From positions 868,001 to 932,000 of the forward strand of contig NZ_QXTG01000001.1 of the NCBI RefSeq assembly GCF_003581425.1: a stretch of DNA of 64,000 bases. Direction: 5' to 3'. Of this stretch, positions 39,615 to 49,351 are shown piece after piece. Source of the stretch: Amnibacterium setariae. Its GTDB lineage: Bacteria > Actinomycetota > Actinomycetes > Actinomycetales > Microbacteriaceae. The position numbers were made by a program, and so were the translations under genes. Positions within the stretch are counted from its first letter, which is position 1. Every line of letters starts with the position of its first letter. The notes beneath the pieces are model-generated. The model was not told where the DNA came from. It saw nothing but the letters and a program-made list of their open reading frames with translations, and searched no databases.

Positions 39615-40544
39615 ATGCGAGCAGTGCGGTTCGACGAGTACGGCGACGAGACGGTCCTCGAGGTCCGGGAGGTGCCCGACCCGCAGCCGGGCCCGGGCGA
39701 GGTCGTGGTGCGGGTGGTGACCGCCGGCACGAACCCGGGCGAGGTCGGCATCCGGTCCGGCGGGCTGCGCGACCGGTTCCCGGCGCGGTTGCCGGAGGGC
39801 GAGGGCAGCGACCTGGCGGGGTACGTCGCCGCCGTCGGTGCCGACGTGCAGGGGGTGGCGATCGGCCAGCCGGTGATCGGGCTCTCCGACGGGCGGAACG
39901 CGCAGGCGGAGCTGGTGCTGCTGCCCGCGGACCGCGTCGTGCCGAAGCCGGACGCGCTGGGCTGGGACGTCGCCGCGACGCTCTACGTCGCGGGCACGAC
40001 CGCGCTCGCGCTGCTGCAGACGGTCCCGGTGGGCGCCGGCGACACCGTGGTCGTCGCCGGTGCGGCGGGCGGCGTCGGCGTCTTCCTGACGCAGCTCGCC
40101 GCCGGCGCCGGCGCGCGGGTGATCGGCGTCGCGGGGGAGGCGAACCACGGCTGGCTGCGCGAGCACGGCGCGGAGCCGGTGACCTACGGCGACGGCCTGG
40201 AGGAGCGCCTCCGCGCCCTCGCGCCGGACGGCGTGACGGCGGTCTTCGACCTGTTCGGCGGCGGCTACACGGACCTCGCGATCGCGCTCGGCGTGGACCC
40301 GCAGCGGGTCGCGACCGTCGCCGACTTCACGGCGGGCGAGCGGCTCGGCGTGCAGGTGACCGGGATGGCCGCGCTCGCCGACCCGGCGGAGGGCGTCCGG
40401 CAGCTGGCCGCGATCGCGTCGCAGGGCGGGTTCGAGGTGCCGATCAAGGCGCGCTTCCCGCTCGCGGAGGTGCAGGAGGCGTACCGCGAGGTGTCGCGCC
40501 GCTCCGGCCTCGGCAAGGTCGTCCTCGAGGTCTCCGAGCCCTGA
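39615..40544 (+). CDS. NADP-dependent quinone oxidoreductase-like protein
   Basis: A 309-aa MDR-superfamily reductase without zinc ligands. N-terminal MRAVRFDEYGDETVLEVREV, the segment GEGSDLAGYVAAVG, and nucleotide motif VAGAAGGVGVFLTQLA identify it as a quinone reductase/enoyl-reductase relative. It lies between rsmI and metG, a position not usually occupied in Actinobacteria, so it may be a local insertion. Substrate unknown. Confidence 0.9.
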   Translation: MRAVRFDEYGDETVLEVREVPDPQPGPGEVVVRVVTAGTNPGEVGIRSGGLRDRFPARLPEGEGSDLAGYVAAVGADVQGVAIGQPVIGLSDGRNAQAELVLLPADRVVPKPDALGWDVAATLYVAGTTALALLQTVPVGAGDTVVVAGAAGGVGVFLTQLAAGAGARVIGVAGEANHGWLREHGAEPVTYGDGLEERLRALAPDGVTAVFDLFGGGYTDLAIALGVDPQRVATVADFTAGERLGVQVTGMAALADPAEGVRQLAAIASQGGFEVPIKARFPLAEVQEAYREVSRRSGLGKVVLEVSEP

Positions 40545-40582
40545 CCGGAACCGCGCGTCGTAACGGGGGGTCACGACCCCGG

Positions 40583-40591
40583 TAAAATCCC

Positions 40592-40594
<3 letters not shown>
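40583..40594 (+). promoter_or_regulatory. Promoter of metG, probably leaderless
   Basis: TAAAAT at 40583-40588 is an almost consensus -10, standing out in a GC-rich background. The GTG at 40595 begins 7 bases after it, where transcription should start, so metG is probably translated without a leader. No clear TTGACA is seen upstream and no ribosome binding site precedes the start. Confidence 0.6.
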
Positions 40595-42181
<1,587 letters not shown>

Positions 42182-42189
42182 CGCCGCCC

Positions 42190-42292
42190 TTCGCGGATCC
42201 GCACTTCCTCCGCGGATCCGCAGTTCTCGGGCGACACGCCGCTCCGAGGCGTCCGGTAGCGGCGTGTCGCCGAGTTCGTGCGGATCCGCGAA
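42190..42292 (-). repeat. 103-bp GGATCC-core palindromic element, copy 1
   Basis: Read on the minus strand it runs: outer arm TTCGCGGATCCGCAC, inner arm GGCGACACGCCGCT, a 14-base loop, AGCGGCGTGTCGCC, an extra GCGGATCCGC unit, and outer arm GTGCGGATCCGCGAA. The outer arms (15 bp) and inner arms (14 bp) are each perfect inverted repeats. It occupies the whole metG-tatD gap, and its last base is the A of the tatD ATG. Copy 2 at 46010-46113 lies in the opposite orientation with the same layout. Confidence 0.9.
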
Positions 42293-43179
42293 TGGCTGAG
42301 CGGAGCTACCCGCCGCTGCCGGAGGCGCTGAAGGTCCCGGTCTACGACGACCACACCCACATCGACCCGTTCTCCGGGCCGGGCTGGTTCGGCGACGACG
42401 GGGGCGAGCCGCTCGACTGGCGCGAGCAGCTCGACCGCGCCTCCGTCGCCGGGGTGAAGGGCGTCGTGCAGGTCGGCACCGACGTCGAGTCGAGCCGCTG
42501 GTCCGCCGAGCACGCGGCGATCGACCCGCGGATGCTCGCCGCGGTCGCGATCCACCCGAACGACGCCGCGGTGCTGGAGGCGGAGGGCGGCCTCGACGAC
42601 GCGCTCGCGGTCATCGACGAGCTCGCCGCGCAGCCGCGCGTGCGCGCCGTCGGGGAGACGGGGCTCGACTTCTACCGGACCGGGGAGGACGGCCGCGCCG
42701 CCCAGTTCCGCTCCTTCGAGGCGCACATCGACATCGCGAAGCGGCACGGCGCCGCGCTGCAGATCCACGACCGCGACGCGCACGTCGAGGTCGTCGACAC
42801 CCTGCTGCGCGTCGGCGCGCCCGACCGCACCGTCTTCCACTGCTTCTCCGGCGACGCGGGCCTCGCCCGGCTCGCGTCGGCGCACGGCTGGTACCTCTCC
42901 TTCGCCGGCACGGTGACGTTCAAGAACGCGGAGGGGCTGCGCGAGGCGCTGCGCGTCACCCCGCGCGACCGCCTGCTCGTCGAGACCGACGCGCCCTGGC
43001 TCGCGCCGGCGCCGGTCCGCGGCCGGCCCAACGCGCCCTACCTGGTGCCGCACACCCTCCGCTTCATGGCGCAGGTGCTCGAGACCGACCCGTCGATGCT
43101 CGCCGCCCAGATCGCGAGCAACACGGAGGCGGTCTACGGCAGCTGGACCGACGACGCCCCCGAGCGCTGGGGCCGCTGA
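42292..43179 (+). CDS. TatD family metal-dependent hydrolase
   Basis: A 295-aa TIM-barrel DNase/hydrolase. Metal ligands are seen in YDDHTHID near residue 18-25, GETGLDFYR, LQIHDRDAH, FHCFSGD and ETDAPWL. TatD enzymes degrade DNA ends or damaged DNA. In Actinobacteria metG-tatD-rpf-ksgA is a common order; here rpf and ksgA do not follow. The ATG lies at the edge of the palindromic element and has no recognisable ribosome binding site. Confidence 0.93.
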   Translation: MAERSYPPLPEALKVPVYDDHTHIDPFSGPGWFGDDGGEPLDWREQLDRASVAGVKGVVQVGTDVESSRWSAEHAAIDPRMLAAVAIHPNDAAVLEAEGGLDDALAVIDELAAQPRVRAVGETGLDFYRTGEDGRAAQFRSFEAHIDIAKRHGAALQIHDRDAHVEVVDTLLRVGAPDRTVFHCFSGDAGLARLASAHGWYLSFAGTVTFKNAEGLREALRVTPRDRLLVETDAPWLAPAPVRGRPNAPYLVPHTLRFMAQVLETDPSMLAAQIASNTEAVYGSWTDDAPERWGR

Positions 43180-43183
43180 CCCC

Positions 43184-43253
43184 CACTCCGCATATTGCTC
43201 ACGCTTCTGGACGCCGGATCGGCGATCGCGCGTCCAGAAGCGTGAGCGAAGTG
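43184..43253. repeat. 18-bp palindrome between convergent tatD and membrane protein genes
   Basis: GCTCACGCTTCTGGACGC (43197-43214) is exactly matched by GCGTCCAGAAGCGTGAGC (43230-43247) with a 15-base loop, and CCCACT/AGTGGG flank it. It likely forms a bidirectional terminator but lacks a T-run. Sequence is unrelated to the other palindromes in the window. Confidence 0.85.
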
Positions 43254-43258
43254 GGCCG

Positions 43259-44221
43259 TCAGGGGGTGGCGGGGACCGGGTGCTCCGCCGCGTATGCGCG
43301 GATGCGCCGCATCTGCCCCCTGATCAGGACGACGGCCGTCAGTGCCGTGGCGAGCGTCAGCGCCGCGCAGACGAGCAGGAAGCCGGCCAGGCCGCTGTCC
43401 GAGCCGACGGCGTTCGCAGCGAGCACCAGCGGAAGCACCGCGTTCGTCAGCTGTGACAACGTCTGGAGGCGGAGCCAATCGGGCGCCACCGCGGCGTAGC
43501 GCGCCGCGCGGTCCGCGTCCTCCGGCGAGAGCTCCTCCGGCTTCCCCCGCACCGCGCGACCGATCCGACGCGAGCTCGTCCACTCCTCGCCGATCACCTC
43601 GCGCACGCGTCGGCCGACGGCGAGCGAGCCGAACGACGCGGCGAGCGACGCTCCGAGGCCCGTGAAGAGGAGGACGAAGGCGCCGAGACGCCAGTCGAGG
43701 TCGCCCCCCGCGAGCCCGAGACCGAGGACCGTCACGAGCAGGATGCCGAAGGCGAGCCCGATCGCCGCGCCGATGCCCGCGCGTCGCCACGCGGTGCGGA
43801 TCGCCGCTCGCACGCCGTCGAGGTCCGTCCGCACCACGAGGCGCGGCTCGCGCCGCCGCGCCGCCCGGCCGAGCAGCACGGCGAACGGGTCGCACGACAG
43901 CGCGAGCGCCAGGACGCCGAGACCGGCGGGCAGCGCGGACGGGAGCGCCACGAGCACGAGTGCGAAGCCGACCGCCGCGGCCAGCTGCACCGCCGCGAGG
44001 ACGGAGAGGCAGACGCGGAGCCGCCGTCGCGCGTCGCCCTCCCACGCCCAGTAGCTGACGAAGACGCCGGCGAGCAACGGCGGGACGACGAGGAGCGCGA
44101 GGGCGGACGAACCGGCGGCGAGCAGCCCCTGCGGCGCGTCGGCGAGCGCGAGGACGACCCCGCCGAGCGCCACGACGACGAGCGGCGGCAGGGTGAGGGC
44201 GAAGCGGAGCAGCGCGGGCAT
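43259..44221 (-). CDS. Uncharacterised multi-pass membrane protein
   Basis: A 320-aa protein with about eight hydrophobic segments in two groups, split by a charged cytoplasmic-looking region (RRIGRAVRGKPEELSPEDADRAARYAAVAPDW) near residues 215-250. No transporter signature is recognised. AGGAG stands before the ATG at 44219-44221. It is divergent from the secreted sialidase gene. Its third-position GC is a little lower than in its neighbours by eye, consistent with acquired DNA, but this was not computed. Confidence 0.75.
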   Translation of the reverse strand: MPALLRFALTLPPLVVVALGGVVLALADAPQGLLAAGSSALALLVVPPLLAGVFVSYWAWEGDARRRLRVCLSVLAAVQLAAAVGFALVLVALPSALPAGLGVLALALSCDPFAVLLGRAARRREPRLVVRTDLDGVRAAIRTAWRRAGIGAAIGLAFGILLVTVLGLGLAGGDLDWRLGAFVLLFTGLGASLAASFGSLAVGRRVREVIGEEWTSSRRIGRAVRGKPEELSPEDADRAARYAAVAPDWLRLQTLSQLTNAVLPLVLAANAVGSDSGLAGFLLVCAALTLATALTAVVLIRGQMRRIRAYAAEHPVPATP

Positions 44222-44353
44222 CGGAACTCCTGATCAGGTGCTGGAACGGTAGTGCCTGCAGAAGGCGTGCGGCGGCGCGGCCCCCTCGAACCGGGGGCGG
44301 CGCGTCGGCGGCCGATGGCCGACCATGGGCACGACTGCTCGGGGGGAGCGCTC

Positions 44354-45811
44354 GTGTCCGGAGGTCCGCTGCGGCGGGGCGCGCTCGCCGCGCTCGCGGC
44401 CGTGCTGCTCGTCGGCGGCTCGACGCTCGCCGCAGCGCCCGCGTCCGCGGCGCCGCGCACGTGCGCCGCGACGCCGTTCCGCAGCGATCCGGCGAAGCAC
44501 GTCTGGTACCGCATCCCGGCGGTCGTGCGGACGACCGCGGGGACCCTGCTCGCCTTCGCCGAGCGCCGCGACTCGATGGCGCCGTCGAGCGACACCGGCG
44601 ACACGGACGTGGTCGTCGCGCGCTCCACCGACCGCGGCTGCACGTGGAGCGCGCCCCGCGTGGTCGCGGCGAACGGCACCGACACGGTCGGCAACCCGGC
44701 GCCCGTCGTCGACCGGGACACGGGTGAGGTGCTGCTGCTCACCGTCGACCGGCCGCGGGGCGGCACGAGCTACCACGGCCTGCACCTCCAGCGCTCGAGC
44801 GACGACGGCCGCACCTTCACGCCCTACGACCGGGCAGGGAAGGACCTCTTCCGGCTGCCCGGCTGGGCCGGCGGGCTCACCGGCCCGGGCCACGCCCTGC
44901 AGCTGGCCTCCGGGCCGCACTCCGGCCGCATCGTCGTGCCGATCGGGTACGAGCGGGACGGCCGCGCCGGCGCCTACGCGATCGTCAGCGACGACCACGG
45001 GGCGACCTGGTCGACGGGCTTCGACTCCCAGGGCGCCGACCACCGGCAGGAGGGCACGGTCGCCGAGCTGCCCGACGGGCGCCTCTGGATCAGCTACCAC
45101 GAGCAGAGCGCCTCGATCCCGGTCGGGAGAGGCCGCATCGCCGCGCTCTCGAGCGACGGCGGCGCGACGCTCAGCACCCCGTTCACGCGTCTCGGCCTCC
45201 CGACCGTGTCGGTGCAGGCGAGCTCGCTGGTGCTGACGGGGAAGCACGCCGGGCTCCTGCTCGTCTCGAGCCCCGGCACCCCGGACCCGTCCGTGCGCCG
45301 CGTGATGACGATCTTCACGTCGCGGACGGCGGTGCCCGGCGCCTCCTGGACCCGCTACCCGGTCGCGCTCGACGACACCCCCGCCTCCTACTCCGACCTC
45401 GTGCAGCTCGACGACGAGACCGTCGGGATCCTCTACGAGACCGGGCGGCGGTCGTGGCACGAGGGCATCGCCTTCCGCACCGTGCCCGTCGCCGCGCTCA
45501 CCGCGGGCCGGGCGACCGCGTCGAAGGCCGCGCTCGCGCTCCCGAAGCACGCGAGGGCCGGGCGGACGCTCGTCGTGACGGCCCGCGCGATCGTGCCCGG
45601 CACCTCCTCTCCGGCGGGCAGCCTCACCGTCCGCGTCACGGGGAAGCACTGGACGCGCACGACCACGCTGCGCATCATCCACGGCGGGGGCGGGAAGCGC
45701 GTCGCCTCCTTCGCGCGGGTGCCGAAGGGGCGGTACACCGTGTCGGTCGTCTACTCCGGCAGCCCGCGGATCCGCGCGGCGACCGCGAAGGCGGCGCTGC
45801 GGGTCCGCTAG
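44354..45811 (+). CDS. Secreted exo-alpha-sialidase (GH33-like)
   Basis: A 485-aa protein with a Sec signal peptide (cleavage likely after APASA near residue 32). The six-bladed propeller shows WYRIPAVVRT (the FRIP-type arginine motif), Asp boxes STDRGCTW, SSDDGRTF, SDDHGATW and SSDGGATL, the acid Glu in HRQEGTVAEL and a late Tyr in GILYETG. It would remove terminal sialic acids. Residues after about 395 form an Ig-like domain (RAGRTLVVTARAIVPG). No cell-wall anchor is present. GTG at 44354 follows GGGGGGAG; a longer frame lacks a signal peptide at its start. Confidence 0.9.
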   Translation: MSGGPLRRGALAALAAVLLVGGSTLAAAPASAAPRTCAATPFRSDPAKHVWYRIPAVVRTTAGTLLAFAERRDSMAPSSDTGDTDVVVARSTDRGCTWSAPRVVAANGTDTVGNPAPVVDRDTGEVLLLTVDRPRGGTSYHGLHLQRSSDDGRTFTPYDRAGKDLFRLPGWAGGLTGPGHALQLASGPHSGRIVVPIGYERDGRAGAYAIVSDDHGATWSTGFDSQGADHRQEGTVAELPDGRLWISYHEQSASIPVGRGRIAALSSDGGATLSTPFTRLGLPTVSVQASSLVLTGKHAGLLLVSSPGTPDPSVRRVMTIFTSRTAVPGASWTRYPVALDDTPASYSDLVQLDDETVGILYETGRRSWHEGIAFRTVPVAALTAGRATASKAALALPKHARAGRTLVVTARAIVPGTSSPAGSLTVRVTGKHWTRTTTLRIIHGGGGKRVASFARVPKGRYTVSVVYSGSPRIRAATAKAALRVR

Positions 45812-45821
45812 CCTCCCGATC

Positions 45822-46004
45822 GTGATCCGGCGCCCCGTCCAGTGGCGGCGCAACGCCGTCATCGCCGTCGTGCTGGCGCTGCTGATCCTCGTGCTGCAGC
45901 TCGTCGCCGGGAACCCGTTCCTCATCGCGCTGCTCTCGGCCGTCGTCGCGGTCGTCGTGGCGCTCGGCGTCCTCGCCGTCGCGGACCGCTTCTCGCGCCG
46001 CTGA
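45822..46004 (+). CDS. Small two-helix membrane protein, 60 aa
   Basis: A 60-residue protein with two hydrophobic segments (AVIAVVLALLILVLQLVAG and FLIALLSAVVAVVVALGVLA) and basic ends. It starts with GTG 10 bases after the sialidase stop and may be cotranscribed. No function can be assigned. Copy 2 of the palindromic element begins 5 bases past its stop. Confidence 0.6.
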   Translation: MIRRPVQWRRNAVIAVVLALLILVLQLVAGNPFLIALLSAVVAVVVALGVLAVADRFSRR

Positions 46005-46009
46005 CGCCG

Positions 46010-46113
46010 TTCGCGGATCCGCAGGAACGTCCCGACACGCCGCTGTCGGCGGGGCCCTGAGCGGCGCGTCGCGTCGGAACTGCGGATCCGCGCAAGAAGT
46101 GCGGATCCGCGAA
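46010..46113 (+). repeat. 104-bp GGATCC-core palindromic element, copy 2
   Basis: Runs TTCGCGGATCCGCA, CGACACGCCGCT, a loop, AGCGGCGCGTCG, GAACTGCGGATCCGCG and GTGCGGATCCGCGAA. It aligns over its full length with the reverse complement of 42190-42292 (about 77 of 89 positions outside the loop by hand). Compensating changes are not evident in the inner stem, where one arm has drifted. It lies between the small membrane protein gene and the convergent fdhD gene, ending 5 bases before the fdhD stop. Confidence 0.9.
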
Positions 46114-46118
46114 GCGGG

Positions 46119-46943
46119 TCAGGGCGTGATGCGCTCGGGGTGGGCGTAGATCGTGAAGGAGCGGCCGCGGCTGAACCCGATCAGGGTGATGCCCGCCTCC
46201 TCCGCGAGCTCGACGGCGAGGGAGGAAGGCGCGCTCACCGCGGCGAGCACCGGGATCCCGGCCATCCGCGCCTTCTGCACCAGCTCGAACGAGGCGCGGC
46301 CCGAAACCTGCAGGATCGACCGGGACAGCGGCAGGCGCCCCTCCGTCAGCGCGCGCCCCACGACCTTGTCGACCGCGTTGTGCCGGCCGACGTCCTCGCG
46401 CAGCGTCACGAGCGCGCCGTCCGGGTCGAACAGGCCGGCCGCGTGCACGCCGCCGGTCGCGTCGAACAGGTCCTGGCCGGCGCGCAGCCGGTCCGGCAGG
46501 GCGGCGACCAGCCCCTCCGGCACGGTCAGGCCGACCGGCAGGATCGGGAACGCGGAAGCGGTGCGCACGGCGTCGATGGAGGCCAGCCCGCAGACCCCGC
46601 AGGCGCTCGTCGTGTAGAGCGTCCTCGCCCGCTCCGCCGCCGCCGCGACGCCCCGCCCGGTCACCGTCGCGTCGACGACGTTGAACGTCGGCTCGCCGTC
46701 CAGGCCGATCCCCGACACCGTCCGCATCGCCGGCAGGTCGTCCGCCGCAGCGACGACGCCCTCCGACACGAGGAAGCCGGCGACCAGGTCGAAGTCGTCC
46801 CCGGGCGTCCGCATGGTGACGCTGAACCGGCCGCCGTTCACCCGGATCTCGAGCGGCTCCTCGAGCGCGACGACGTCCTCCCGGTGCCGCCGCCCCTCGG
46901 GGATGCGAACAGCCTGCACACGGCGCCGCGCGATCAGCCTCAT
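46119..46943 (-). CDS. fdhD: Formate dehydrogenase accessory sulfurtransferase FdhD
   Basis: A 274-aa protein that carries sulfur from a cysteine desulfurase to the molybdenum cofactor of formate-dehydrogenase-type enzymes. The active-site loop TTSACGVCG, GDDFDLVAGFLVSEG and REDVGRHNAVDKV are hallmarks. It is divergent from the FdhF/YdeP-like oxidoreductase over 62 bases, a common pairing. ATG at 46941-46943. Confidence 0.96.
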   Translation of the reverse strand: MRLIARRRVQAVRIPEGRRHREDVVALEEPLEIRVNGGRFSVTMRTPGDDFDLVAGFLVSEGVVAAADDLPAMRTVSGIGLDGEPTFNVVDATVTGRGVAAAAERARTLYTTSACGVCGLASIDAVRTASAFPILPVGLTVPEGLVAALPDRLRAGQDLFDATGGVHAAGLFDPDGALVTLREDVGRHNAVDKVVGRALTEGRLPLSRSILQVSGRASFELVQKARMAGIPVLAAVSAPSSLAVELAEEAGITLIGFSRGRSFTIYAHPERITP

Positions 46944-47005
46944 GCGGCGATGATCGCACCGGCCGTCCGGGAGGCCCGACGTAGCATCGCACCCGGGAGG
47001 CGGTC

Positions 47006-49351
47006 ATGGGCGACGACACCACCGCGCGAGCGGAGCAGAACATCGACGACTCGGGCCTGCGGGTCACGAAGCCGCGCACGCACGCGACCGGGTGGCCCGC
47101 GATCGGCCACTCGCTGCAGATCGGCGAGGAGCAGATGGGCGCGGTCCGCACCGGCCGCACGCTCCTCGAGATCAACCAGGTGCACGGCTACGACTGCATG
47201 AGCTGCGCGTGGCCGGACCCGGAGCCCTCCCGCCGCTCGCCCGCCGAGTTCTGCGAGAGCGGCGCGAAGGCGGTCGCCGAGGAGGCGACGAAGCGGCGCG
47301 TGACGCCCGCGTTCTTCGCCGCGCACCCGGTGGCGGAGCTGGAGACGTGGGACGACTTCGCGCTCGGGCAGCAGGGCCGCATCACCGAGCCGGTGCTGCT
47401 CGAGCCCGGCGACGACCACTACCGGCCGGTGAGCTGGGACCGCGCCTTCGACGTGATCAAGGAGGAGATCGACCGGCTCGCGTCGCCCGACGAGGCCGTC
47501 TTCTACACCTCCGGCCGCACGAGCAACGAGGCCGCCTTCGTCTACCAGCTGTTCGTCCGCTCGCTCGGCACGAACAACCTGCCGGACTGCTCGAACATGT
47601 GCCACGAGTCGACGACCCGGGCGCTCACGCAGACGATCGGCATCGGCAAGGCGTCCGTGTCGATCGACGACATCGAGCACGCCGACCTGATCCTCATCGC
47701 CGGCCAGAACCCCGGCACGAACGCGCCGCGCATGCTGACGCGCCTCGAGAACGCGAAGAAGAACGGCGGGAGGATCGTCGCCGTCAACCCGCTGCGGGAG
47801 GCGGGGCTGCTCCACTTCGACAACCCGCAGTCGGTGCGCGGGCTCGTCTTCCGCGGCCGGCAGCTCGCGGACGAGTTCCTCCAGATCCGCCTCGGCGGCG
47901 ACCAGGCGCTGTTCCAGGCGCTCGGCAAGGTGCTGCTCGAGCTCGAGGCCGAACGCGGAGGCGGGGTGCTCGACCAGGACTTCATCGCGCACTACACGGA
48001 GGGCTTCGAGGGCTGGCGCGACCAGGTCTCCGGCCTGTCGTGGGCGGAGATCGAGACCGCGAGCGGGCTCACCGAGCAGCAGATCCGCACCGTCGCGACG
48101 ATGATCGCGGACGCGAGGAGCGTCATCTTCGCGTGGGCGATGGGGCTCACGCAGCAGACGAACGCGGTCGCCACGATCCGCGACCTCACGAGCGTGCTGC
48201 TCGCGACGGGCAACGTCGGGCGGCCGGGCGCCGGTCTCCTCCCGGTCCGCGGGCACTCGAACGTGCAGGGCGACCGGACGATGGGCATCTGGGAGCAGAT
48301 GCCGAAGCCGTTCCACGACCGGCTCGACGCGGAGTTCGGCTTCGCGTCGCCCCGCGAGAAGGGCTTGGACACGGTCGAGGCGCTGGAGGCGATGCACGCC
48401 GGCCGGGTCAAGGTCTTCATGGGCCTCGGCGGCAACTTCGCGAAGGCGACCCCGGACACGAAGGCGACCGAGGCGGTGATGCGGACGCTCGACCTCACGG
48501 TCCACGTGTCGACGAAGCTGAACCGCTCGCACGTCGTGCACGGGAAGCGGGCGCTGATCCTGCCGTGCCTCGGGCGCACCGAGATCGACATCCAGGCGTC
48601 GGGCCCGCAGCGCGTCAGCGTGGAGGACACGGTGAGCGCCGTGCACGGCTCCGCCGGCGAGCTGCAGCCCGCCTCCCCGGCCCTGCGCAGCGAGGTCGCG
48701 ATCGTCTGCGGCATCGCCGAGCGCGTCCTCGCCGGGCGGCCGAACGCGGCAGCGGCGGACTGGCGGGCGATGCGGGACGACTACCGCGTCATCCGGCAGC
48801 ACATCTCGCACGTCGTGCCGGGGTTCGAGGCGTACGAGGAGAAGCTCGACGTGCCGGGCGGCTTCGTGCTGCCCCACGCCGCGCGCGACAACCGGCACTT
48901 CGCGACGAACACGGACGGCGGCAAGGACGCCCGCGCGCAGTTCACCGTGAACGCGCTCGAGTACCCGCGGATCCCCGAGGGACGGCTGCTGCTCCAGACG
49001 ATCCGCAGCCACGACCAGTTCAACACGACGATCTACGGCAAGGACGACCGGTACCGCGGCATCCACGGCGCGCGGAAGGTCGCGCTCGTGAACCCGGAGG
49101 ACCTCGCCGAGCGCGGGCTCGTGGAGGGCGACCTCGTCGACCTCGTCAGCGAGTGGACGGACGGCGTCGAGCGGCGCGCGGAGGGGTGGCGGGTCGTGCC
49201 CTACAACACGCCCCGCGGCAACGCCGCCGCCTACTACCCCGAGGCGAACGTGCTCATGCCGCTCGGCTCGACGGCGAAGGAGAGCAACACCCCGGTCGCG
49301 AAGGCGATCGTGATCCGCCTCGAGCGCGCGGCGGTCCCCGTCCCCGCCTGA
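47006..49351 (+). CDS. FdhF/YdeP family molybdopterin oxidoreductase
   Basis: A 781-aa bis-MGD enzyme of the formate-dehydrogenase H-like YdeP group. Near the N-terminus YDCMSCAWPDP (about residues 64-72) and FCESGAK provide too few cysteines for the standard four-Cys [4Fe-4S] site, a known trait of this group. The probable Mo ligand is Cys in SNMCHEST near 196-203. VRGHSNVQGDRTMG and a C-terminal molydopterin-dinucleotide domain follow. Family members are linked to acid resistance; formate oxidation is not shown. TAGCAT at 46982-46987 may be its -10; GGGAGG precedes the ATG. Confidence 0.93.
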   Translation: MGDDTTARAEQNIDDSGLRVTKPRTHATGWPAIGHSLQIGEEQMGAVRTGRTLLEINQVHGYDCMSCAWPDPEPSRRSPAEFCESGAKAVAEEATKRRVTPAFFAAHPVAELETWDDFALGQQGRITEPVLLEPGDDHYRPVSWDRAFDVIKEEIDRLASPDEAVFYTSGRTSNEAAFVYQLFVRSLGTNNLPDCSNMCHESTTRALTQTIGIGKASVSIDDIEHADLILIAGQNPGTNAPRMLTRLENAKKNGGRIVAVNPLREAGLLHFDNPQSVRGLVFRGRQLADEFLQIRLGGDQALFQALGKVLLELEAERGGGVLDQDFIAHYTEGFEGWRDQVSGLSWAEIETASGLTEQQIRTVATMIADARSVIFAWAMGLTQQTNAVATIRDLTSVLLATGNVGRPGAGLLPVRGHSNVQGDRTMGIWEQMPKPFHDRLDAEFGFASPREKGLDTVEALEAMHAGRVKVFMGLGGNFAKATPDTKATEAVMRTLDLTVHVSTKLNRSHVVHGKRALILPCLGRTEIDIQASGPQRVSVEDTVSAVHGSAGELQPASPALRSEVAIVCGIAERVLAGRPNAAAADWRAMRDDYRVIRQHISHVVPGFEAYEEKLDVPGGFVLPHAARDNRHFATNTDGGKDARAQFTVNALEYPRIPEGRLLLQTIRSHDQFNTTIYGKDDRYRGIHGARKVALVNPEDLAERGLVEGDLVDLVSEWTDGVERRAEGWRVVPYNTPRGNAAAYYPEANVLMPLGSTAKESNTPVAKAIVIRLERAAVPVPA

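Follow-up and report, generated by a model that had tools for sequence, protein, structure and literature searches.

To our knowledge, only one enzyme family has so far been linked with REP-type repeats, and DUF559 is a Pfam name that stands for unknown function. REPs generally exceed 100 copies according to the excerpts of PMC2817692, and the CGTC-tagged REPs described in excerpts of PMC3733652 are palindromic and reportedly without a dedicated transposase. The EDxHD nuclease I-Bth0305I dimerises and has a target of nearly 60 bp, as stated in part of a review (PMC3943268). The locus considered here lies in a 64,000-nucleotide stretch of DNA from Amnibacterium setariae, a member of the Microbacteriaceae (the window), which carries two palindromes at gene ends. 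These probably belong, as solo copies, to a REP-like family that has an AbiEi-DUF559 nuclease of its own and cassettes exchanged in a homing-like manner. The argument draws on features seen in the sequences, namely the box architecture, the gene-end place and orientation, the brackets around the nuclease gene, and the palindrome differences at orthologous sites.

Layout and spread of the elements

An earlier note had placed two palindromes in opposite orientation at 42190-42292 and 46010-46113, and both the places and the inversion are borne out. A repeat search finds the window copies to be inverted repeats of each other, with 88% complementarity over 56 nt and 82% over 44 nt, and the family alignment sets their limits as given below. 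The element is about 106 bases long; its A boxes, GCGGATCCGC, usually lie two on one side and one on the other, while box B is an inverted pair, CGACACGCCG/CGGCGTGTCG, at fixed spacing relative to the A boxes.

42189-42293, + strand: element copy 1, type I, 18-bp centre (family alignment); neighbours by Pfam are the methionyl-tRNA synthetase stop at 42179-42181 and the TatD start at 42292
42193-42202, + strand: outer A box (extra unit), copy 1
42212-42221, + strand: inner A box, copy 1
42232-42241, + strand: B box CGACACGCCG, copy 1
42242-42259, + strand: variable 18-bp centre, copy 1, the putative cut region
42260-42269, + strand: B' box CGGCGTGTCG, copy 1
42280-42289, + strand: single far-side A box, copy 1
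46009-46114, - strand: element copy 2, type I, 19-bp centre (family alignment); neighbours by Pfam are a + strand ORF with its end at 46004 and, on the - strand, the FdhD gene at 46119-46943
46101-46110, - strand: outer A box (extra unit), copy 2
46082-46091, - strand: inner A box, copy 2
46062-46071, - strand: B box, copy 2, which reads CGACGCGCCG, one change from CGACACGCCG
46043-46061, - strand: variable 19-bp centre, copy 2
46033-46042, - strand: B' box, copy 2
46013-46022, - strand: single far-side A box, copy 2

The extra GCGGATCCGC unit, from which a direction had been read, occurs on one side only in 42 of the 44 aligned own-genome copies and on both sides in none (0/44). The linkers and the 18/19-bp centre are free in sequence, the box spacing is fixed, and the centres of unlinked copies are unrelated with the boxes constant. 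Pairing within a copy does not exceed that of shuffles in the linkers (p 0.93), the 19-bp centres (p 0.06), or the 18-bp centres (p 0.54). Since linkers and centre are free and lack internal pairing, DNA-binding boxes are suggested as the conserved feature, an RNA stem is not favoured, and RNA structure was dropped from consideration in that role. Boxes of retained copies are nearly identical between species and their linkers are not kept; this conservation may be partly due to replacement and to search bias.

A profile scan of retrieved stretches gives 50 element copies in the genome of origin (G000). The pattern TGCGGATCCGC occurs 70 + 62 times there and its reversed control 0 + 0 times, which excludes chance; blastn with copy 1 returns 78 match rows, in which one place may count on both strands. 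Covariance-model matches are found in 7/7 Amnibacterium genomes. What the earlier note gave as grounds for refutation is not seen: copies are many, relatives have them too, and the family is neither restricted to two copies nor assigned to a known annotated one (no Rfam match in 40000-48000). The description as a REP-like or mobile palindrome stands for a dispersed, directional, REP-like family, and mobility is plausible only. A further window palindrome, 43181-43266, has no match beside any nuclease locus examined.

Box B with other A boxes is seen in other Actinomycetales genera, at several loci around AbiEi-DUF559-type genes. Outside the order, B pairs occur once in each of 4 genomes among 296 phylum-wide and were taken as chance. 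The doubled A box is present in 43 stretches of genome contigs, 11 of them from organisms besides A. kyonggiense and the M67 MAG; these 11 show no adjacent box B by eye and are therefore also treated as chance. Plasmids, phages, and viral contigs contain no blastn match to the element and no doubled A box. Matches to the B-pair pattern occur in 12 viral contigs. Among the occurrences of the box-B letters examined in excerpts of the literature, only unrelated primers are found.

A plain MITE, derived by deletion from a DDE transposon and having the A and B boxes as its inverted ends, could account for inverted ends, high copy number, and the fact that some sites are unoccupied in relatives. However, the A-9N-B half-site has 86 matches in the own genome and those listed all lie in known full copies, so that no longer element with such ends is seen; furthermore, unrelated centres in unlinked copies combined with fixed boxes are unlike decaying copies of one master, which leaves this explanation very improbable.

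Position at gene ends

The copies are located at the 3' ends of genes. Among 98 copies, 51 lie between convergent, 34 between same-direction, and 12 between divergent genes. In the same-direction pairs, 28/34 copies face the upstream stop, which is the preferred orientation, and the median distance from gene stop to element is 4 bp. Convergent spacers account for 26/44 of those with an element and 105/472 of those without (Fisher p 7e-7). These figures would suit host gene-end sites, i.e., bidirectional terminators or insulators acting as an RNA hairpin or a protein roadblock, which the nuclease gene merely carries or uses; so would the conservation of boxes across species and the RNA folding of both window copies, which is far better than that of shuffles (z -7.6 and -5.6). 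Gene ends are, however, also where elements avoiding harm would accumulate, and a stem plus T-run terminator is absent from 42000-46400, in agreement with the previous judgement that these are not normal terminators. The lack of within-copy pairing above shuffles, the 12/98 copies between divergent genes, and the existence of element-free orthologous spacers also count against host sites, and the nuclease brackets are left unexplained. We consider this explanation unlikely.

Some orthologous spacers in relatives are without the element; the MetRS-TatD spacer of one relative (G002) is empty, and a clear target-site duplication is not visible by eye. The idea that solo elements of several genera share a neighbouring gene was rejected, since among 370 neighbour ORFs from several genera the largest clusters have only 4 members. 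Two of the 4-member clusters combine Amnibacterium with another genus.

The bracketed AbiEi-DUF559 gene and its probable exchange

The partner first suggested was a TnpA_REP-like transposase, and the plan of inverted palindromes flanking a gene, together with solo gene-end copies, is the general plan of a RAYT/REP system with an IS200/IS605-type tyrosine transposase. The Y1/RAYT family PF01797 is nevertheless found in 0/20 genomes, 7 of them Amnibacterium, by a search that is positive in 5/14 control genomes, and the gene that is bracketed instead encodes a predicted DUF559/EDxHD-type nuclease of a different fold. A RAYT was accordingly rejected as partner, and such a system has next to no probability here.

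The candidate partner combines an AbiEi-like DNA-binding N-terminal half with a Vsr-like EDxHD homing-nuclease C-terminal half (DUF559), and its gene sits between two inverted element copies, elsewhere in the genome than the window copies. The bracket test covered 30 loci in 7 Amnibacterium genomes. Elements stand on both sides of 9/9 full-length homologues with at least 45% identity and B-box elements on both sides of none of the remaining 21/30 loci. Without reference to motifs, inverted flank matches at E 1e-10 are present at 17/29 genus loci, with 12/29 lacking a strong inverted bracket, at 6/30 loci in other genera, and in 3/600 random windows, these three sharing a single nuclease locus as their source. 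At L224 the strict B-pair test failed, and L225 has a low-scoring right bracket; in another genus (g28), B pairs lie on both sides of L251, L252, and L272. The tree places the 8 bracketed proteins that it includes within one 11-row clade (support 100/99), whose other 3 rows are bracketed by other palindromes, and brackets of related proteins have box types in common.

A first structure model (6 rows; pLDDT 60) was discarded as too poor, and the model used for Foldseek has pLDDT 93. Its two best kinds of match are the AbiEi antitoxin 6y8q and the homing-endonuclease domain 3r3p (TMt 0.76, E 2e-3), with probability 1.00; E-values range from 1.7e-3 to 0.07, none being at or below 0.001. Residues E207, D234, D246, H251, and D260 are invariant in 30/30 proteins, and E207, D234, H251, and D260 match the E, D, H, D catalytic pattern.

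Orthologous gene-end sites hold different palindromes in different species, with or without a nuclease gene. At one such site, G006 and G004 carry different nuclease and palindrome families; at two orthologous sites, a bracket corresponds to a solo element, with box types differing within each site. The possibility that gene-end palindromes are passive handles, allowing defence-like AbiEi-nuclease cassettes to be exchanged by homologous recombination without nuclease recognition, is in line with the G006 and G004 site and with the PADLOC AbiEi models, which match up to 20/30 proteins (one model). Passive handles would not need boxes retained amid free linkers, though, nor do they fit the roughly 50 solo copies without a cassette or the box types common to brackets of related proteins; we regard them as quite unlikely.

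For a family of palindromes served by a dedicated nuclease, we infer binding, cleavage, and mobility, which would proceed as follows. A protein dimer would recognise the inverted B-box pair together with the A boxes on its flanks and then cut within the 18/19-bp centre of free sequence. Repair of the break, acting between palindromes that resemble each other, would insert, remove, or swap cassettes, as in homing. Because the element is near-palindromic, such repair at a cut copy would place the gene between two elements in inverted orientation, the arrangement observed. The intact boxes of solo copies may mean that the host employs them as binding sites at gene ends, or that new copies keep replacing old ones. 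Type I cores are equally intact in G001, which has a mere remnant of the clade I gene, and in G000 (p 0.70), and only the extra box is worse in G001 than in G000 (p 8e-4); the type II copies of G001 (n=4) are more damaged despite the presence of a clade II gene, and in G006 the nuclease gene has an in-frame stop and the 20 element copies appear intact. Decay of elements in step with enzyme loss was thus tried as an idea, with a mostly negative outcome. A broader reading is conceivable, although we lean slightly against it: an order-wide REPtron-like class independent of RAYTs, in which AbiEi-EDxHD nucleases with their own A-box dialects, many sharing box B, would cut the centres and in this way relocate themselves and exchange one palindrome for another at gene-end sockets.

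Comparison with known systems

If another enzyme family, unrelated to the first, had the gene-between-inverted-repeats plan, this would amount to convergence, DUF559 proteins would gain a concrete, testable DNA substrate, and natural long-target nucleases, with half-sites and spacer readable from genomes, would become available. The N-terminal part resembles AbiEi of the AbiE type IV toxin-antitoxin system in fold and profile matches, but is here fused to a nuclease domain. The catalytic-domain fold match and the E-D-x-H-D residues are shared with I-Bth0305I as described in the excerpts of its review; unlike that enzyme, the protein has an AbiEi-like N-terminal half, a gene located between gene-end palindromes, and dozens of target-like solo copies. 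The CGTC-tagged REPs are likened by their partial description alone, as lacking a dedicated transposase, and no link is claimed. Measured against the REPs of the cited excerpts, which are paired stems of 20-40 bp, the Amnibacterium element consists of fixed-spacing boxes over about 106 bp, its 50 copies by profile fall below the REP norm, and the 44-copy consensus lacks the GTAG tag, or a variant of it, that RAYT-linked repeats have at their foot. As in the REPtrons portrayed in parts of PMC2817692 and PMC3733652, palindromes are dispersed on the downstream side of genes, two inverted copies enclose a dedicated nuclease gene, and different repeat types are paired with different enzymes; the enzyme, however, belongs to another family, being AbiEi-DUF559/EDxHD-like in place of the HUH tyrosine RAYT. 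The system looks as if it works like a REPtron, not with a RAYT but as an independently evolved counterpart of the REP systems.

Element architecture and genomic placement

The palindromes are a real REP-like family, as the earlier note had suggested for the two copies in the window, which occupies C1:868001-932000 of the 3.48-Mb Amnibacterium (Microbacteriaceae) genome (G000). Both window copies are type I, element types being defined by the letters of their A boxes, and they are located as follows.

42189-42293 (+), copy 1, between the methionyl-tRNA synthetase (MetRS) gene and the TatD gene
46009-46114 (-), copy 2, flanked by a 60-aa ORF and the FdhD gene

A blastn search returned 78 match rows in G000 itself, and the fetched G000 stretches held 46 candidate places, of which 44 were aligned; a coding match in locus L057 and a divergent copy with type III letters in locus L040 were left out. 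The latter (~2023-2166) has the outer arm CCTGATCCGTGAA, which resembles the third A-box type of loci L228 and L229. Profile scans counted 50 copies in G000, 28 distinct copies in G001 (29 entries, one copy appearing twice) and 20 in G006, the last two being other Amnibacterium genomes. The covariance model matched in all 7 Amnibacterium genomes and blastn in 9 of 40 genomes, namely these 7 and two others with one weak match each; Rfam gave no match within window positions 40000-48000.

Read from its doubled side, the element comprises an A box, 9 bp, a second A box, 10 bp, box B (CGACACGCCG), a centre of 18 or 19 bp, box B' (CGGCGTGTCG), 10 bp and a last A box. The centre measures 19 bp in 34 of 45 rows and 18 bp in 10, and the remaining row, window copy 2, resolves to 19. 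In 37 of 44 copies neither B nor B' deviates from these letters. The two named stems are paired in 99.0% of cells, and seven stem cells are changed on both sides, six via the A-box variant GCGGATCCGG and one in box B; neither the linkers (p 0.93) nor the centres (p 0.06 for 19 bp, p 0.54 for 18 bp) pair within copies above random dealing. Since a freely drifting RNA stem should give more compensating changes, we read the conserved parts as putative fixed protein-binding boxes. Copies carrying GCGGATCCGG, assigned by the majority of the diagnostic base, constitute type II, and the type I/type II counts are 40/10 in G000, 24/4 in G001 and 0/20 in G006. Locus L025 (G000 C1:802457-804583) contains, at ~1000-1124, a copy with four GCGGATCCGC units rather than three, the extra unit lying again 19 bp further out.

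With gene neighbours taken from a crude GC3-based gene call, 98 copies were placed: 51 between convergent genes, 34 between same-direction genes, 12 between divergent genes and 1 unresolved. For neighbouring genes called in the window and in the stretches of G001 and G006, 26 of 44 spacers with an element are convergent vs 105 of 472 without one (Fisher p 7e-7). Stop codon and element are separated by a median of 4 bp, and in same-direction spacers the doubled side faces the upstream stop codon in 28 of 34 cases and the opposite way in 6 (binomial p 2e-4). Element pairs also bracket two ordinary-looking G000 genes, named by eye from their translations, which are XerD-recombinase-like at L038 and enolase-like at L030. 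A second near-perfect palindrome (window 43181-43266) immediately follows the TatD stop and matches at least six further G000 places by blastn (C2:517517, C2:372069, C1:755645, C1:737067, C1:1054168 and C1:581775); it probably represents another gene-end palindrome family, and it has no match at any nuclease locus examined here.

Predicted nuclease genes bracketed by element pairs

The Y1 domain PF01797 was found in 0 of 20 genomes. Homologous genes bracketed by close element pairs occur in three species, and their products appear to combine an AbiEi-like DNA-binding half with a DUF559/EDxHD homing-nuclease half. A homologue search of the genus gave 36 match rows, with loci for 30. Pfam assigned DUF559 to 27 of the 30 related proteins, REase_MTES_1575 to 26 and AbiEi_4 to 13; the DUF559 match of the G000 protein (L212) lies barely above the cut-off and its MTES_1575 match below it. 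Nine loci are full-length with at least 45% identity to the query. Profile-scored elements stand on both sides at L212, L221, L222, L223, L224, L225 (its right element weak) and L227, and L228 and L229 are flanked left and right by B pairs that go with a different A box. A strict B-pair rule retains 8 of the 30 loci and excludes L224. Of the 21 loci besides these nine, none is flanked by B pairs left and right; they include L240, a 64% fragment adjoining one element where G000 has the orthologous bracket. Among random windows from element-rich stretches, 6 of 2000 are flanked in this way. In the tree of the 30 proteins, the eight bracketed rows all fall inside one 11-row clade (support 100/99), whose remaining rows (L213, L233 and L239) have inverted brackets formed by other palindromes. 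At L222 (G006 C1:942660-946481, gene 1501-2322), the nuclease gene between the elements contains one in-frame TAG, despite which the 20 elements found in G006 look intact.

A motif-free test, in which inverted matches were sought between the left and right 500-bp flanks with L240 excluded at both thresholds, gave matches at E 1e-3 in 33 of 59 loci vs 30 of 300 random windows. At E 1e-10, matches occurred in 17 of 29 Amnibacterium loci and 6 of 30 other-genus loci vs 3 of 600 random windows, and all three positive windows fall at the L141 nuclease locus itself. The association between element and nuclease is strong, and we infer a mechanism that links them.

Of 297 genomes of the order, 34, representing 14 of 95 genera, contained an inverted pair of exact B boxes 8-30 bp apart; the reversed-control pattern had one match in each of four genomes, among the matches listed. 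Phylum-wide, with a 5-35 spacer, 7 of 296 genomes contained a B pair, four of these lying outside the order with one each. Exact inverted B pairs with an 8-30 bp spacer also occur in 12 viral contig stretches (L200-L211). From 12 genomes of other genera, picked for having B pairs, 30 loci were returned, L254 and L276 being one gene. B pairs stand on both sides in three (L251, L252 and L272), with a different box type and odd spacers at L252; L254 has one B pair by program and a second by eye, one B box being reversed in direction. In the loci of other genera that were read, the outer boxes are GACA-N5-AACGGA with a 28/29-bp spacer, CGCTGTGGGTGCA with 18/19 and GAGTCCGTGGTTGCA with 9, and by eye the B-pair spacers fall near 9, 18-20 and 28-29, at intervals of roughly one helix turn.

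Box conservation, site turnover and element type

Across 13 orthologous G000/G001 pairs, 47 of 754 box positions differ (3 of 260 for B and B' together), as do 214 of 495 linker and centre positions; the boxes themselves served to find the copies, and fresh copies replacing old ones at the same place could mimic such conservation. Four pairs have centres at least 55% identical and thus clearly share common descent, and in these the boxes differ at 6 of 232 positions and the remainder at 50 of 175.

Turnover at orthologous spacers is real. Among five orthologous spacers inspected, none of them chosen for an element there, one, the G001 site orthologous to window copy 2, has an element with different A boxes and identical B boxes, one has ~2 kb of other DNA and three have no visible element. 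In the MetRS-TatD spacer, G000 and G001 carry a type I element, G004 an L233-family palindrome, G003 other sequence and G002 no element. At one convergent spacer, G001, G002 and G004 carry a bracketed gene of nuclease clade II and G000 a solo type I element. At a second, G001 and G004 carry a bracketed gene whose A boxes are of the third type, and G006 a solo type II element. At a third, G006 has a type II bracket, and G004 has a different nuclease together with a different palindrome.

If each type of element required the nuclease clade that goes with it, the type I copies of G001 would be expected to decay, since only a remnant of the clade I gene is left in that genome. The G001 type I cores show no decay (p 0.70); their extra box is the sole decayed part (p 8e-4), and the four type II copies are the worse ones (p 0.02), although this genome has a clade II gene. 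The decay comparison therefore does not show that the boxes depend on their matching enzyme.

Protein fold and relation to known systems

An AlphaFold model built from 30 sequences reached a mean pLDDT of 93. Its top Foldseek matches in the PDB were the AbiEi antitoxin 6y8q (probability 1.00, E 1.7e-3) and the I-Bth0305I homing-endonuclease catalytic domain 3r3p (probability 1.00, E 2e-3), followed by Vsr 1cw0 (probability 0.99, E 0.07); none of the PDB matches had an E-value as low as 0.001. Because these E-values are weak and the decay test failed, the odds for the enzyme-specific part are lowered slightly. E207, D234, D246, H251 and D260 do not vary among the 30 proteins, a pattern that fits the EDxHD family. 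A review gives nearly 60 bp as the length of the target on which the EDxHD enzyme I-Bth0305I dimerises (PMC3943268), and a DUF559 protein from Caulobacter has been investigated as a repair enzyme of the Vsr kind (PMC12907096).

Among the open-access papers listed by the literature searches, no title or abstract opening linked DUF559 or AbiEi-like nucleases with dispersed palindromes. The REP-like family is new relative to the literature and databases searched here, and its putative partner enzyme is of a new kind. RAYT genes are said to lie invariably between two inverted REPs and to coevolve with them (PMC2817692), and CGTC REPs are said to be without a dedicated transposase (PMC3733652).
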